Assembly: GCA_011375345.1 (NCBI GenBank)
Contig: DRLM01000062.1
Location: forward strand, 1-47,706
DNA from: Gammaproteobacteria bacterium
GTDB taxonomy: Bacteria; Pseudomonadota; Gammaproteobacteria; DRLM01
DNA length: 47,706 nucleotides
Direction: 5' to 3'
Part shown: piece by piece, positions 2,818-42,475 of the stretch
Numbering within the stretch: position 1 is the stretch's first letter
Layout of the letters: each line of letters starts with the position of its first letter
The notes under the pieces: model-generated
Told to the model about the DNA's origin: nothing
Databases searched by the model: none
What the model saw: only the letters and a program-made list of their open reading frames with translations
Translations under genes and position numbers: made by a program

Positions 2818-5316
2818 TCAATCACCCCGCAGGCCCGCCACCGGCCCGGCCCGCGCCATGCGCCAGGCAGGATAGGCCCCCGCCACCAGGGCCGCGACCA
2901 GGGCCAAGGCCACGCCCTGCAGCAGCCAGCGGGGATCGACGTGAAAGGCCAGCGACCAGCCAAAGGCCAGCGGATTGATCACTTCGGTCAACACCAGCGC
3001 CAACACCAGCCCCATGGGCACGGCCATCAGGCCGGCGGCCAGGCCCATGAGGGCACATTCCAGGGTCACCATTTGTCCCACCTGGACGGGCGTCAGGCCC
3101 AGGCAACGCAGCACCGCCAGTTCGCGCCGCCGCTCCAGTTGAATGGCCGCCAGGGCGCTGGCGATGCCCACAAAGGCAATCAGCACCGCCAGGGCGCGGA
3201 GCACCTGGGTCACCGAGAAGGTGCGCTCGAACACCTCCATGGCGGCGGCCTGAATGTCACCGTTGGCGCGCACCCGGAAGTGCTCCCCCAGCACCCGGCG
3301 CAAGGTGGCCTGCACCTCCCGCAAGTCAGCCCCGGGAGCAAGGTAGATGCCGGCGGTGTCCACGCCCAGGTCGCGCCAGCCTTGCTGGTAATTGGCGCGG
3401 CTCATGGCCACCACCCCCTGATCGGACCCGTAGTCGGTGTACACCCCGGCGATGCGGTAGGCTGTGTCGCCGCCATCGGTGGTCAGCATCAGGGTATCGC
3501 CCACCCCCACCTGGTGGCGCCGGGCGTAGGGCTCGGATACCAGCACGGCCTGTTCACCCGCAAAAGCAGCGCGGGCCGATTCGGGATCGCCCTGAATGAT
3601 GCGAAAACCGTCCCGACTGCGGGGCGCGCTGTGGAGCACGAACAAGGTGGTGGGGTGGCCATCGGCCATCACCCGGACGCGCCGTCCCGTGCTCACCGCC
3701 GCCACCCCGGCGAGCCCCGACAAACGTGCCGTGTCGGCCACCGTCCAGGTGGCGCCGTCCCGGGGGGAGACGTACACATCCGCTCGCAGGGTCTGGCTCA
3801 GCCACTCGCTCAAGGTGATGCGAAAGCTGTCTATCATCACCGCAATACCCACCGTGGCCGCCACCGCCACCGCCAGGGCGGCCACCGCCACCCCCGTGCG
3901 GCTCAGGGAAAGGGCCGGTCCCCGCGCCGCCATGCGCCCCACGCTCCCCGCCAGGACACCCACCAGGCGGCGGGCGGCCGCCAGAAACAGCACCAGGGCC
4001 GGGGGCGTCAACACAGCCATGCCGATGAGGATCAAAAACAAGGCGGCAAAGGCGCCGAACAAGCTCAAACCAGAATACGCCAGCAAAGCCCCCCCCACGG
4101 CCAGCAGCGCCAGCGCGAGGGGAATGCCCCACAGCAGGCCCCGGCGGCGACGCCCCTCCACCACGGAACGGCTCATGGCGGCACGGGGGGCGACGGCGGC
4201 CGCTTCCCAGGCCGGGAGCAGCGCCGCCGCCACCGTGACAATCAAGCCCAACACGACGCCTTTGAGGAACACCCCGGGTGTGGGAAACAGCCCGGCCGCG
4301 CTGACAGACAGGTACAAATCGCTCATGGTGCGGGTCACCGGCCCGATCAACACCCCCGCCAGGACCGTGCCCAGCGCCAGACCGGCCAGCAGGCCCACCG
4401 TCCCCACCGCCAGCGCTTCGCCGATCACGAGGCCGAACACCTCGCGGCGGGTCACCCCCAGGGCCCGCAACAGCCCCAGCAACTCCCGCCGCCGCACCAC
4501 GGAAAACACCATGGCGTTGTAGACTAGGAAGGCGCCCACCAACAAGGCCAGCAAACCGAGGGCCTGCAGGTTGAGGCGGAAAGAGGCGGTGAGCTGGGCG
4601 AGTTCGCCGCTGCGCTCATTGGCGGCGCCCAAGCGGAGTCCGGCGGGCAGCTGTTGTTGCACCCGGGCCGCCTGCTCCGCCGAAAGCACCAGATCCACCC
4701 GGGACAGCCGGCCCACGCTGTCCAGCACCTCCTGGGCCGTGGCGATGTCCATCACCAAGGTGTCCTGGAAAGCGGCCCGGGCGAGACTGCCGGGCGGGTC
4801 GAACACGCCGATGACGGTGATCCGGTGCTCACGCCCACCCGCCGCCACCGTGATCCGGCTGCCTGGCACAATGCCGAGATCGTGAGCCGCATCGGCGCTC
4901 AGAAGCGCCGAACCCGCTTCCGTCAGCAGCCGCCCGCTGTTCCCGCCCTCGACTGTAACGGCGGCGGCACCACGCGCCCCCCCGTCGGCAAAGGGATCCA
5001 CACCCAGGATGTTCAAACGGGCATCCTGATGATCCGGCACGCGCCCCTGTCCTTCCACCACCGGCGCGATACTGCGCAGGCCCTGTTTGCGCAGCGCCAC
5101 ATAGACGGCGTCGGGCACCCCCTCCCGCCCGCCGCTCAGGCTGTGGGTGGCCTTTCCGCTCAGCAACTCCGCGGTAGCCTCGAAACTGCTGAGGGCACTC
5201 CCGGCCGCCAGATCCACCGCCGTCACCACCGCTACGCCCAGCACAATACCCACCACGGAAAAGGCGAACTGCCAGGGGTGGCGCAGGAGTTCTTTGACAA
5301 TGAGGCGTGTTAACAC
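2818..5316 (-). CDS. ABC transporter permease, FtsX/MacB-type, duplicated
   Basis: A large membrane protein of 832 residues with an N-terminal transmembrane helix, an extended periplasmic domain, a central bundle of helices (about residues 250-490), a second soluble domain and three C-terminal helices. This is the layout of tandem FtsX-like permeases such as YbbP of E. coli, thought to export or extract lipophilic substrates. I chose a GTG start because AAGGA lies five bases upstream; an ATG 14 codons earlier has no better site. The gene lies 60 bp downstream of its ATPase on the same strand, so they should form one transporter. The substrate is unknown. The tesA gene often found beside ybbAP is not present here. 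Confidence 0.85.
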   Translation of the reverse strand: MLTRLIVKELLRHPWQFAFSVVGIVLGVAVVTAVDLAAGSALSSFEATAELLSGKATHSLSGGREGVPDAVYVALRKQGLRSIAPVVEGQGRVPDHQDARLNILGVDPFADGGARGAAAVTVEGGNSGRLLTEAGSALLSADAAHDLGIVPGSRITVAAGGREHRITVIGVFDPPGSLARAAFQDTLVMDIATAQEVLDSVGRLSRVDLVLSAEQAARVQQQLPAGLRLGAANERSGELAQLTASFRLNLQALGLLALLVGAFLVYNAMVFSVVRRRELLGLLRALGVTRREVFGLVIGEALAVGTVGLLAGLALGTVLAGVLIGPVTRTMSDLYLSVSAAGLFPTPGVFLKGVVLGLIVTVAAALLPAWEAAAVAPRAAMSRSVVEGRRRRGLLWGIPLALALLAVGGALLAYSGLSLFGAFAALFLILIGMAVLTPPALVLFLAAARRLVGVLAGSVGRMAARGPALSLSRTGVAVAALAVAVAATVGIAVMIDSFRITLSEWLSQTLRADVYVSPRDGATWTVADTARLSGLAGVAAVSTGRRVRVMADGHPTTLFVLHSAPRSRDGFRIIQGDPESARAAFAGEQAVLVSEPYARRHQVGVGDTLMLTTDGGDTAYRIAGVYTDYGSDQGVVAMSRANYQQGWRDLGVDTAGIYLAPGADLREVQATLRRVLGEHFRVRANGDIQAAAMEVFERTFSVTQVLRALAVLIAFVGIASALAAIQLERRRELAVLRCLGLTPVQVGQMVTLECALMGLAAGLMAVPMGLVLALVLTEVINPLAFGWSLAFHVDPRWLLQGVALALVAALVAGAYPAWRMARAGPVAGLRGD

Positions 5317-10877: not shown

Positions 10878-12197
10878 ATGGAACAGGTGGACACGCTGAT
10901 CAACGCCCGCTGGATCATTCCGGTGGAGCCGCACGAAACAGTGCTGGAGCACCACAGCCTGGCGCTGCGGGACGGCCGCATTGCGGCGCTGCTGCCCCGG
11001 GCCGAGGCGGCGGCCCGCTACCGCGCGGCAGCGGTGGTGGAGCTGGCGGCGCACGCCCTCATACCCGGTCTGATCAATGCCCACACCCACGCCGCCATGT
11101 CGCTGCTGCGTGGTCTGGCGGACGATCTGCCCCTGATGGAGTGGCTCCAGGAACACATCTGGCCGGCGGAAGGAGCCTGGGTAAGTCCCGAGTTCGTGCG
11201 CGACGGCACCGAACTGGCGGTGGCCGAAATGCTCAGGGGCGGCACCACCTGCTTCAACGATATGTATTTTTTCCCCGACGAGACCGCCCGCAGCGCCGCC
11301 GCCGCAGGCATGCGGGCGGTGGTGGGCATGATCCTCATCGACTTCCCCACGGCCTGGGCCCAAAACGCCGATGACTACCTCAGCAAGGGCCTGGCCGTGC
11401 ACGACGAATTCCGCCACCACCCTCTGATCAGCACCGCCTTCGCCCCCCACGCCCCCTACACCGTCTCCGACGCCCCCTTGCAGCGGGTGCAGACACTGGC
11501 GGAAGAACTGGATGTGCCCATTCACATGCACATTCACGAAACGGAACACGAAGTGACGGAGGCGGCGCAGCAAAACGGCCTGCGCCCCCTGGCCCGCCTG
11601 GAACAACTGGGACTGCTGTCACCGCACCTGCTGGGCGTCCACATGACCCAGCTCAGCGACGGCGAGATCAACGCCTACGGCCGCGCCGGCGGCCACGTGG
11701 TGCACTGCCCCGAGTCCAATTTGAAACTGGCCAGCGGCTTTTGCCCGGTGCAGCGGCTGCTGGAAGCCGGCGTCAACCTGGCCCTGGGCACCGACGGCGC
11801 CGCCAGCAACAACGACCTGGACATGTTCTCAGAGATGCGCAGCGCCGCCCTGCTGGCCAAGGCAGTGGCCAGGCGGGCCAGCGCCGTGCCCGCCGCCCGC
11901 GCCCTGGCCATGGCCACCCTGGGCGGCGCCCGCGCCCTGGGGCTGGAGGAAGAAACCGGCTCCCTGGTCGCGGGCAAGGCGGCCGATGTGGTGGCCGTCA
12001 ATCTGGGAGAGGCGGAGACCCAGCCCGTCTATCACCCCGTTTCCCAACTGGTCTACGCCTGCGGGCGCGACAAAGTCACCGATGTCTGGGTGGCCGGCCG
12101 CCACGTGCTCAAAGACCGGGTTCTGACCACCGTGGACGAACACGATATCCTGGCCAAGGCCCAGGCCTGGCAGCAAAAAATCCGCCAATACGATTGA
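10878..12197 (+). CDS. mtaD: 5-methylthioadenosine / S-adenosylhomocysteine deaminase (TRZ/ATZ family hydrolase)
   Basis: A 439-residue amidohydrolase. Metal ligands are visible as the NAHTH motif (His69 and His71), the later [10 protein letters not shown] segment, and the catalytic aspartate in [14 protein letters not shown]. Enzymes of this group deaminate methylthioadenosine and S-adenosylhomocysteine to the inosine forms. The position directly before ubiG and gph is a recurrent gammaproteobacterial arrangement, and fits removal of the homocysteine adduct left by methyltransferases. The start is supported by GGAGGGG eight bases upstream. It is the first gene of a three-gene operon. The exact substrate among adenosine, MTA and SAH derivatives cannot be read from sequence. 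Confidence 0.88.
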
Positions 12198-39775: not shown

Positions 39776-41173
39776 GGCTCTTCGGCAGAATTCGTGGGTA
39801 GAAGGGGGTTGTAAATGAGAGATTGAGGGCAGAGGAGGAGTAGCGCATCCCGCCCCGCCTCTGAGAAGATGATAGTTGCTAAGGCCATCATCAATCGGAG
39901 GGAAAGGAGCGGGATGCTGGTTAAGACTATCCTCAATCGTGTCCAGAAATTCAAATCTTTTGTGTATGGCGCGGTCCGCTGGATTGATCATGAGGGGGCG
40001 CCGGCCCTGGAAGTGGAACTGCGGGCGCGGGCCAACAGCCGGCCGCTGTGCAGCGGCTGTGGCCGGGCGAGGCCTGGCTATGACCGGTTGCCGGCACGGC
40101 GCTTTGAGTTTGTGCCCCTTTGGGGTCTCAAGGTATTCTTCCGTTATGCACCGCGGCGGGTGGACTGTCCTGGGTGCGGCGTACGGGTTGAGCATCTGCC
40201 GTGGGCCTTGGGCAAGAGCCGCCTGACGCAGGCCTATGCCTGGTTTCTGGCGCGCTGGGCAAAGCGGCTGAGCTGGAAAGAGGTGGCGGAGGCCTTTCGC
40301 ATGAGCTGGGAGGCGGTCTACCGTTCTGTGGAGATGGCCGTTGCGTGGGGTCGGGCGCATCAGGACCTTTCTGGGATTCGGTCCATTGGTGTGGATGAGA
40401 TCCAGTGGCAGCGGGGGCATCGTTATCTGACGCTGGTCTACCAGATCGACAGTGGCTGTAAACGGCTGCTGTGGGTGGGAGAACGGCGGACGGTGAGGAC
40501 TCTGCTGAAGTTCTTCCGCTGGTTTGACAGGGAGCGCAGCCAGTCCCTGAGGTTCATCTGCAGCGACATGTGGCGGCCCTACCTGAAGGTGATCGCCAGG
40601 AAGGCAGGGCAGGCCATTCATGTGCTGGATCGTTTTCACATCATGGCTCACCTGAGCAAGGCCATTGACGAGGTCCGGGCACAGGAGGCCAAGGCGCTGA
40701 AGGCGCAGGGCTACGAGCCGGTGTTGACCAAGACGCGATGGCTGTTGCTCAAGCGCCCTGAGCACTTGACTGAGCACCAGGAGGCGCGCTTGGCGGAGCT
40801 GTTGCAATATAATCTGAAGAGTGTGCGCAGCTATCTGCTGAAGGAAGAGTTCCAGTTCTTCTGGACCTACAAGTCGCCCTACTGGGCCGGTGAATTCCTG
40901 GAACGCTGGTGTAGGAAGACCATGCGCTCGAAGATTGAACCGATGAAGAAAGTGGCGAGAATGTTGCGCAGGCATCGTCCGCTGCTGATGAACTGGTTTC
41001 GCGCCAAGGGACAGCTTTCCAGCGGCGTAGTGGAGGGCTTTAACACCAAGGCAAAACTGACTGTCAGAAAAGCCTTTGGCTTTAGAACCTATCACGCTAT
41101 GGAAATCGCTTTGTATCATACACTTGGCGCCTTACCTGAACCGGAATCTACCCATAGATTCTGCTGACGAGGC
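39776..41173 (+). mobile_element. ISL3-family insertion sequence
   Basis: Ends are marked by imperfect inverted repeats of about 27 bp: the left begins GGCTCTTCGGCAGAATTCG and the right, read inward, GCCTCGTCAGCAGAATCTA; about 20 of 27 positions agree. The element carries one transposase gene. The eight-base sequences just outside (TTCTTTTT and AAGAAAAA) are not identical, so I see no target duplication; the element may be old or have taken part in a rearrangement. Confidence 0.85.
39914..41167 (+). CDS. ISL3 family transposase
   Basis: A 417-residue transposase. An N-terminal zinc-finger region (Cys46, Cys49, Cys85, Cys88) is followed by a helix-turn-helix and the DDE catalytic domain. Candidate catalytic residues are Asp161 (IGVDEIQ), Asp218 (CSDMW) and Glu374 (GVVEGFNTKAK). 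It appears intact and full length. The start at 39914 has AAGGAGCGGG just before it; upstream in-frame ATGs at 39869 have none. The gene stops six bases before the right end of the element. Confidence 0.92.
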   Translation: MLVKTILNRVQKFKSFVYGAVRWIDHEGAPALEVELRARANSRPLCSGCGRARPGYDRLPARRFEFVPLWGLKVFFRYAPRRVDCPGCGVRVEHLPWALGKSRLTQAYAWFLARWAKRLSWKEVAEAFRMSWEAVYRSVEMAVAWGRAHQDLSGIRSIGVDEIQWQRGHRYLTLVYQIDSGCKRLLWVGERRTVRTLLKFFRWFDRERSQSLRFICSDMWRPYLKVIARKAGQAIHVLDRFHIMAHLSKAIDEVRAQEAKALKAQGYEPVLTKTRWLLLKRPEHLTEHQEARLAELLQYNLKSVRSYLLKEEFQFFWTYKSPYWAGEFLERWCRKTMRSKIEPMKKVARMLRRHRPLLMNWFRAKGQLSSGVVEGFNTKAKLTVRKAFGFRTYHAMEIALYHTLGALPEPESTHRFC

Positions 41174-41221
41174 AAGAAAAATCAGCGGCGGGCAAGCGCA
41201 TTCAGGGGTCTCGCATTCACT

Positions 41222-41240
41222 AAAGGGGTCTGACCCCTTT
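41222..41240. repeat. Solo REP-like palindrome
   Basis: AAAGGGGTC, one base, then GACCCCTTT: a perfect 9-bp inverted repeat, clearly related to the two palindromes beside the RAYT gene. Here no RAYT is adjacent; it lies 50 bp downstream of the IS. Confidence 0.8.
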
Positions 41241-41267
41241 TTGACCTGTCGGCGCCGCGTAAGCGGT

Positions 41268-41314
41268 CCCCCGCCGCGGTGAAGCGCCCGGGCGGAACGC
41301 TTCGCGGCGGGGGG
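41268..41314 (-). terminator. Very stable hairpin downstream of the histidine-rich gene
   Basis: CCCCCGCCGCG(GT)GAAGCG pairs with CGCTTCGCGGCGGGGG, a 17-bp stem with a two-base bulge and a loop of twelve bases. It follows the stop codon of the histidine-rich gene on the minus strand. It lacks a T-run, so it may be a terminator or a transcript-protecting structure. Confidence 0.5.
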
Positions 41315-41345
41315 ATGCCGCGGCTACAGCGGGGTGCCGAACACG

Positions 41346-41612
41346 TTAGTGATGGTCATGTTCGTGCGGTTCGGCGTCATGACCCGGGTGCTTGTGTTCA
41401 TGCCCCTCCAGTTCATTTTCTTCATGTTGGTGATCGTGTCCGCTGCCGGTGTCGTGACTGTGGCTGTGTTCATGCTCATGGCTGTGCGTGTGGCTGTGGG
41501 TGTGCCCATGGGGGTGTTTGTGCTGCGTGCCGTCTCCGTGAGTGTGTTCATGCTCGTGCTGATGACTGTGTTGATGGTCGTGTTCGTGAGCGTGTTTGTG
41601 TTTTCCTTCCAT
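41346..41612 (-). CDS. Histidine-rich small protein, probable metal binder
   Basis: An 88-residue protein in which 34 residues (39 percent) are histidine, mostly in alternating patterns such as HEHDHQHSHQHEHEHTH and HTHSHTHSHEHEHSHSH, and with no cysteine. The gene starts with MEGKHKHAHEHDHQH after an excellent ribosome binding site (TTAAGGAG, seven bases before the ATG), so I regard it as real. Histidine-rich stretches of this type bind nickel, cobalt, zinc or copper, as in Hpn-like storage proteins or the loops of ZIP/CDF transporters. No membrane segment or signal peptide is seen. Because the repeats are low complexity, homology to a named family cannot be claimed. No metal transporter or hydrogenase gene is nearby. 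Confidence 0.75.
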   Translation of the reverse strand: MEGKHKHAHEHDHQHSHQHEHEHTHGDGTQHKHPHGHTHSHTHSHEHEHSHSHDTGSGHDHQHEENELEGHEHKHPGHDAEPHEHDHH

Positions 41613-41673
41613 TGCAAATCTCCTTAAAATGTCTGCCAAAACTTCAACCCGGCAACCCAAATTGTCGCCTTAC

Positions 41674-41812
41674 TGTCGCGGCACCGGGAGGTGCCGCCAT
41701 CGGCGTCAGCCAAGGGGAGCCCGCGAACTCCCCGCCCTGTCGCCAAATGGCGGGCGGATTTCGCAGGTGACCATCAAACAGCTCAGGGCAGCCTGTCTGA
41801 TTGCCGCGTTAA
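41674..41812 (+). repeat. Interspersed palindromic repeat, copy B
   Basis: 139 bp that align without gaps to copy C at 42337-42475. Shared blocks are GGGAGGTGCCGCCAT, GCGGATTTC and CATCAAACAGCTCAGG/CGTCAAACAGCTCAGG. The 3-prime palindrome arm is degenerate here (CTGTCTGATTGCC). Confidence 0.9.
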
Positions 41813-42089
41813 CAGTATATAGCGGCCATTGCCGGCGCGCCGCCCCCTTGACGGCCCAGCTAACGGGCTGTCGCCGCAAAACTTTAGTCATCTCCGGTTT
41901 GGCGCGCGGCCGCGAGTAACACTATAAATATCGCAACACCAGCACAACGCGCTGCTTGGCCGGCGTCCGGTTGAAGTTGAGAAAACACAGTCTCTGCTAC
42001 ATATCAACAAAGGGAGGCACCGTGCTTTCAGTGGGCTTGCACTCGCCCGCTGGAAATAGTCTCATGGTGGCTTCCAGGGTGGGAATACT

Positions 42090-42109
42090 CCACCGGCTAA
42101 AGCCGGTGG
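42090..42109. repeat. Perfect hairpin CCACCGGC-TAAA-GCCGGTGG
   Basis: An 8-bp perfect stem with a TAAA loop. This shape and sequence resemble subterminal hairpins of IS200/IS605-type elements and derived MITEs; no transposase is attached, so it could be a solo end. The surrounding sequence (41956-42192) has an open frame but no gene-like start. Confidence 0.45.
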
Positions 42110-42158
42110 CGTCATGTTACGGCAATACGCCGAAGTGGGCGGCCGTACGGCCGGTTGT

Positions 42159-42262: not shown

Positions 42263-42336
42263 TAATAGCAACGATGCCACCCAACGGCGGGGGATTTAGT
42301 GATCCCCTGTCAAAGAAATTAAAATTACCGGGTTGC

Positions 42337-42475
42337 TGTTGCGGCACAGGGAGGTGCCGCCATTGGCGCCAGCCGCTGGGCGCCCGCGCCCTATCCGCCA
42401 TGTCGCAAAATGGCACGCGGATTTCTCGGGTGGCCGTCAAACAGCTCAGGACGAACTGTTTGATGGCCGAGTCAA
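42337..42475 (+). repeat. Interspersed palindromic repeat, copy C
   Basis: Full-length copy matching copy B over 139 bp. The core stem GGCCGTCAAACAG/CTGTTTGATGGCC (42432-42468) has one G-T pair. It ends 14 bases before the cytochrome start codon and so must be in its leader. Confidence 0.9.

Follow-up and report, generated by a model that had tools for sequence, protein, structure and literature searches.

The window, the whole stretch of DNA analysed here, is 47,706 nt long. On its minus strand lies an open reading frame (ORF) for a small His-rich protein, surrounded by the following features:

41346-41612, minus strand: ORF of the His-rich protein, 88 aa plus stop, with ATG at 41612-41610 and TAA at 41348-41346; homologues with synonymous codon change occur in seven other loci

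41620-41625, minus strand: Shine-Dalgarno sequence AAGGAG, 7 nt from the ATG

41659-41812, no strand assigned: one copy of a dispersed repeat, 154 nt long, immediately upstream of the His ORF; the genome has at least 41 matches to it

41268-41313, minus strand: strong GC-rich hairpin without a T run, 3' of the stop codon (-52.2 kcal/mol, z -2.87)

39869-41167, plus strand: ISL3-family transposase gene (PF01610, 4.1e-72), a neighbour outside the system

The protein contains 34 His in 88 residues (38.6%), 19 acidic and 4 basic residues, and no Cys. Over all frames of the window, the runner-up among 88-codon stretches reaches 22% His, as compared with 39% for this ORF. Its longest alternating run comprises 12 His, a length attained by 0.015% of residue shuffles (mean 4.2). 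These values bear out an earlier note on this DNA, which had described a Cys-free protein with 39 percent His and an excellent ribosome binding site. The interval it gave is right, as translation yields 88 aa plus stop; the strand, which it had left unstated, is minus. V/M-rich plus-strand frames over 41346-41612 were rejected as the antisense of the His codons. The insertion-sequence and repeat island that the note placed beside the gene is also present, with the ISL3 transposase gene at 39869-41167 and a second copy of the repeat at 42322-42475. Several of the genome matches to this repeat lie at contig ends. The other neighbours are a HAD-type phosphatase, a small cytochrome c-like ORF and TsaB, so that, as had been stated, no metal pathway gene stands next to the ORF. 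No sigma-70-type promoter for it was found in 41150-42150, and a terminator scan found no minus-strand terminator after it.

The protein itself has no match in Pfam, NCBIfam or PDB sequences. A tblastn search against plasmids was also negative, which is weak evidence because BLAST masks low complexity. A related-locus search of genome contigs matched 595 stretches, none confirmed by tblastn, and no family member in relatives came to light by synteny from the TsaB and cytochrome neighbours. A profile-type search of relatives matched G005 (E 4.0e-5) and, more weakly, G003, both free-standing His-rich ORFs. Within the GTDB family of the source genome (G000), members occur in three of six genomes (G000, G003 and G005). 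None was found in G001, G002 or G004; single HxH matches at G001 C54 and at G002 C111, C121 and C122 were left aside. When 369 genomes of the class were searched for ten alternating His codons, 70 gave a match of at least 10 alternating His. Many of these matches are tails of HypB, NikO or CDF proteins, or simple DNA repeats. This survey led to G183, G309 and G081, which come from among the matches listed and do not amount to a census. An HxH-DGT-HxH DNA pattern, searched in named genomes, returned at least 118 loci, among whose frames 20 of 119 are short and His-rich. L151, L205 and L239 fit the family among the pattern loci listed. Because L239 and G081 are one and the same contig sequence, eight distinct loci are counted.

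Several ORFs from the pattern search stand outside the family count: L141, L179, L136, and the Mycobacterium and Firmicutes ORFs. Those of Mycobacterium (L145, L166, L207, L214, L240, L249 and L251) are short, free-standing HxH proteins with a layout unlike that of the family (MTEQHTHDAPHAHEH...DDGTEHTHQHVHQ). In those of Firmicutes (L139, L164, L182 and L232), a His-rich N-terminus is joined to a helical-looking tail that recurs among them (LLxYMLxHNxHHAEEL-like). In Brachymonas (L154, 5122-5502), HTHADGTxHxH units alternate with CCGKTDCC units in a mixed His/Cys repeat protein.

The same free-standing protein is encoded at all eight loci (G000, G003, G005, G081, G183, G309, L151 and L205). 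Each member is 77-90 aa long and contains 30-38 His but no Cys, and every one of the genes has a ribosome binding site. Each protein also has two alternating-His arms, of 11-13 and 11-12 His, the first of which is interrupted in L205 (7+4). The arms are separated by a short turn, which reads DGT in six of the eight, and are followed by a His-containing tail with His columns that are conserved across the aligned members. The Cys-rich clusters that characterize metallothioneins are lacking, as there is no Cys in any of the eight. To compare the members beyond composition, the window's protein was used as the reference, His positions were set aside, and each relative was shuffled 5000 times. G309 and G183 are each identical at 26 of 54 positions, L205 at 25 of 54 and L151 at 20 of 54, values reached by 0 of 5000 shuffles in each case; G081 is identical at 16 of 50 (p 0.0002). 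Shuffling predicts about 6 identities for these five clear relatives. Because DGT was part of the search pattern behind L151 and L205, up to three of their identities were selected for. The match to G005 is weak (10 of 45, p 0.02), and that to G003 is non-significant by itself (9 of 48, p 0.11); G003 was retained for synteny. Likeness beyond composition is therefore clear in five of seven relatives; the earlier view that homology cannot be assigned because of low complexity is overturned. Synonymous codons differ at 44% to 66% of identical residues between members, as expected for a protein under selection. Judged from sequence, the ORF belongs to an apparently unnamed family of small, Cys-free, free-standing His proteins.

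The architecture of the window's protein was modelled with AlphaFold2 from eight sequences. Its parts are as follows:

41535-41600, minus strand: first alternating-His arm, residues 5-25, 11 His; AlphaFold2 strand 3-24

41523-41537, minus strand: turn G-D-G-T-Q, residues 26-30; DGT in six of eight members

41454-41522, minus strand: second alternating-His arm, residues 31-53, 12 His; AlphaFold2 strand 30-51

41349-41453, minus strand: tail HDHQH...ELEGHEHKHPGHDAEPHEHDHH, residues 54-88; pLDDT 45-56, conserved His columns in family alignments

The model is a single beta-hairpin with strands 3-24 and 30-51, a turn at DGT and pLDDT of 80-93 over residues 1-50; high AlphaFold2 scores on repeats may mislead. 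If the strands pair as predicted, their ends (sum 54) imply that the His of both arms would face one side, opposite each other. A fold search of the PDB with the hairpin model gave nothing at E <= 0.001, and the matches listed are unrelated long hairpins.

The neighbourhoods of the relatives point to a metal-related setting. In five of the eight loci (G003, G081, G183, G309 and L205), the His gene directly adjoins the outer-membrane-protein (OMP) gene of a DUF4198 operon. In G003, it is followed on the same strand by the OMP gene, DUF4198, a membrane protein with a Met/His stretch and a fourth gene; in G081, by an OprB-type OMP, DUF4198 and the membrane protein. In G183, the genes for a Phenol_MetA_deg-type OMP, DUF4198 and the membrane protein run divergently from the His gene; the divergent unit of L205 has the OMP and DUF4198 together with the fourth gene, and no membrane protein was detected in it. 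In G309, the divergent OMP gene is cut by the contig end, so DUF4198 itself falls outside the visible sequence. No DUF4198 adjoins the His genes of G000, G005 and L151. The L151 gene adjoins an FTR1 iron permease, and the G005 gene has TonB-ExbB-ExbD, ABC and TonB-receptor genes downstream. With adjacency in only five of eight, the OMP-DUF4198 operon is not a defining feature of every member. As a control, DUF4198 homologues (E <= 1e-5, pieces of at most 8 kb) were sought in the at least 118 pattern loci; of the loci listed, L205 and L239 have one, both of them among the three family members, whereas the other 115 have none.

Each of the six genomes in the source genome's GTDB family has a single DUF4198 gene. 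In the source genome its operon (OMP, DUF4198, membrane protein, fourth gene) lies on contig C139, away from the His ORF, with a small ORF that contains His and Cys ahead of it. The position in related species that the earlier note singled out for comparison is thus kept in part: the OMP/DUF4198 adjacency holds in five of eight loci, and the window's own copy lies elsewhere. A fold search with the fourth operon gene gave RnfG as the best match (E 1.1e-3, TM 0.37), which is suggestive only of an RnfG-like protein. Ahead of the OMP-DUF4198 operon in G000, G183 and G001, and ahead of the His gene in G005, stand small ORFs starting M-x-C-D-x-T (L111, 7310-7552; L095, about 4427-4612; L112, about 3930; L019, about 10930-11133).

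A link to nickel is suggested by published work on DUF4198. The DUF4198 protein from Ideonella binds Ni with a Kd of 18 nM, and TonB receptors and NikR are among the gene neighbours of the family, as described in excerpts of PMC12537917. Delta-proteobacterial NikR half-sites are given in part of PMC545781 as GTGTTAC, inverted or everted, with 13 or 14 nt between them. Upstream of the source genome's DUF4198 operon are two NikR-like direct pairs, GTGNYAC-N13-GTGNYAC. Half-site pairs also lie upstream at G183 and G309, and at G081 as an everted pair with one mismatch; the half-site scan is strong in only these three and the source genome's DUF4198 operon. Benanti and Chivers reportedly found that NikR of Geobacter uraniireducens binds tandem sites. 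G001 and G002 have one exact match each to GTGNYAC-N(12-14)-GTGNYAC, located about 0.5 kb upstream of the OMP-DUF4198 operon; both genomes were outside the pattern design, whereas the matches in G000, G183 and G309 are circular because their sites inspired the pattern. Across nine genomes, the exact pattern has 21 matches, 7 at an OMP-DUF4198/His locus and 14 elsewhere. The candidate sites are mostly direct repeats, as opposed to the inverted or everted delta-proteobacterial sites described in the same part of PMC545781.

The window's own His ORF has one candidate site:

41916-41939, minus strand: GTGTTGC-N10-GTGTTAC, about 0.3 kb upstream of the ORF; spacing 17 versus 20 in tandem sites elsewhere; non-significant

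In the half-site scan, the best site upstream of this ORF has three mismatches, and 10% of shuffles are as good. The scan gave no convincing pair here or at G005, G003, L205 and L151. No half-site pair was found at the DUF4198 operon of G004, and the nikR-ECF operon of the source genome has no exact half-site match. A genome-wide search with two mismatches gave 97+86 matches versus 161+181 for the reversed pattern, which renders such loose matches meaningless; with three mismatches, the window has 26 matches versus 43.6 expected.

The gene for the candidate regulator, nikR, is present in seven of the nine genomes searched, G004 and G309 being those without it, and in five of the six searched genomes that carry the family (G000, G003, G005, G081, G183 and G309). 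G309 has the best sites yet no NikR_C match; in G183, nikR is on the same contig as the His gene, 6.4 kb away. The source genome encodes NikR and, for a Ni/Co transporter, a NikL-family subunit and CbiM-type and ATPase ECF components. Its NikO-type ECF ATPase and NikR (L102, 3672-4646 and 6887-7336) both end in His-rich tails. It also has a gene for the large subunit of a [NiFe]-hydrogenase, in which the Cys motifs RICGIC and DPCISC are both present, beside a small-subunit-like ORF (L254). A PF00374 search gave no match in G003, G005 and G183, and matches without the Cys motifs in G081 and G309. Among the six member genomes searched for hydrogenase, only G000 thus has a verified nickel enzyme.

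These data allow us to propose a role for the His protein. It may be a cytoplasmic acceptor or buffer for divalent metal, most likely nickel, that is tied to a metal-uptake locus and has been displaced in this genome, a reading in which we place middling confidence. The two arms would pair into a beta-hairpin with most His on one face, and this face, together with the acidic His-bearing tail, would bind several divalent metal ions weakly and exchangeably. The protein would accept or retain metal (most likely nickel) entering the cell through the neighbouring uptake route, and would buffer it until metalloenzyme maturation. In the source genome, the gene would have left the uptake locus, the operon of which is on another contig, and come to stand beside the ISL3 element and the dispersed repeat. 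An uptake-linked role is suggested because most relatives adjoin the uptake operon of OMP, DUF4198, membrane protein and RnfG-like gene. We infer the cytoplasmic location, since no signal peptide is visible by inspection, as well as the binding of metal, its identity as nickel, regulation by NikR and release to enzymes. Nickel is the likeliest metal, short of established, because Ni binding by DUF4198, the half-sites and nikR are set against missing sites, few hydrogenases and Fur-regulated DUF4198 genes. The earlier suggestion of an Hpn-style metal reservoir or buffer therefore stands in part: it agrees with the relatives' OMP-DUF4198 adjacency and half-site pairs, and the window's own copy has neither such a neighbour nor a convincing operator.

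The same architecture could serve a different metal. HxH motifs bind several divalent metals, and a cytoplasmic buffer for iron, zinc or cobalt, linked to an uptake locus of the Fur or Zur type, is a reading that we regard as rather unlikely but weightier than the other alternatives. It draws on this metal range, on the FTR1 gene beside L151, on the TonB-ExbBD and TonB-receptor genes at G005, and on the finding that, of the six member genomes searched for hydrogenase, a single one has a verified nickel enzyme. DUF4198 genes of Caulobacter also respond to Fur (parts of PMC3751524 and PMC11870441), being listed among its targets, and a zur mutant shows a change in one of them (parts of PMC3751524 and PMC4176598). 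Against these metals speak the NikR-type half-sites upstream of the G001, G002, G183, G309, G081 and source-genome DUF4198 units, and the presence of nikR in five of six member genomes, within 6.4 kb of the His gene in G183.

A second question is whether the protein accepts incoming metal or disposes of an excess. Hpn, which the protein resembles in composition, sequesters nickel, is confined to gastric Helicobacter and is upregulated by NikR with nickel (excerpts of PMC4671568); the NikR regulon, as listed in part of PMC7055735, includes hpn beside uptake genes and exbB/exbD. An Hpn-like detoxification sink, induced by excess metal, is nevertheless improbable, as the relatives adjoin uptake-type genes and no efflux genes. 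Less probable still is that the window's gene is a displaced, silent and functionless remnant. The loss of its uptake neighbour, the adjoining ISL3 element and dispersed repeat, and the lack of a promoter match and a convincing operator would fit such a fate, whereas the frame is intact, the ribosome binding site is good, and the full architecture is kept with arm lengths as in the relatives.

The nickel-acceptor reading can be extended to a bolder one, which we consider doubtful. The family might represent a new class of metal protein, present in several gammaproteobacterial families: a histidine-ladder beta-hairpin, the near-equal arms of which would stack His-His pairs on one face as a row of exchangeable sites and accept nickel from OMP-DUF4198 import under tandem-site NikR control. 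If true, this would be a second, unrelated-looking design for nickel storage, tied to DUF4198 uptake, where free-standing storage proteins are otherwise described mainly from gastric Helicobacter, and would offer a testable answer as to the fate of nickel past the inner membrane. Two HxH arms and a turn would also provide a simple sequence rule for finding such proteins despite low complexity. In the one open-access literature collection searched, no publication was found that joins DUF4198, nickel and histidine-rich, and one was found that joins DUF4198 and NikR.

Several known systems share features with this family. Free-standing HxH proteins of Mycobacterium and other organisms are likewise short, with HxH runs and DGT, but they differ in arm layout and tail, have no DUF4198 homologue in their loci and are not counted as members. 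The His-rich tails and loops of HypB, NikO, NikR, CDF and GTPase proteins are of the same alternating HxH metal-binding type; there the His part belongs to a larger protein, whereas here it is the whole protein. DUF4198 (PF10670), a NikK-type periplasmic Ni-binding protein, is a neighbour in several genomes and likely shares a metal route with the His protein, but it is secreted and folded, carries an N-terminal His and is not homologous to it. Closest in working, with no kinship claimed, may be Hpn and Hpn-2 of Helicobacter, which are likewise small, of cytoplasmic type, extremely His-rich and tied to a NikR-type nickel regulon. Hpn has His clusters, plus Cys; the family described here has two alternating HxH arms joined by a turn, no Cys and a link to DUF4198.
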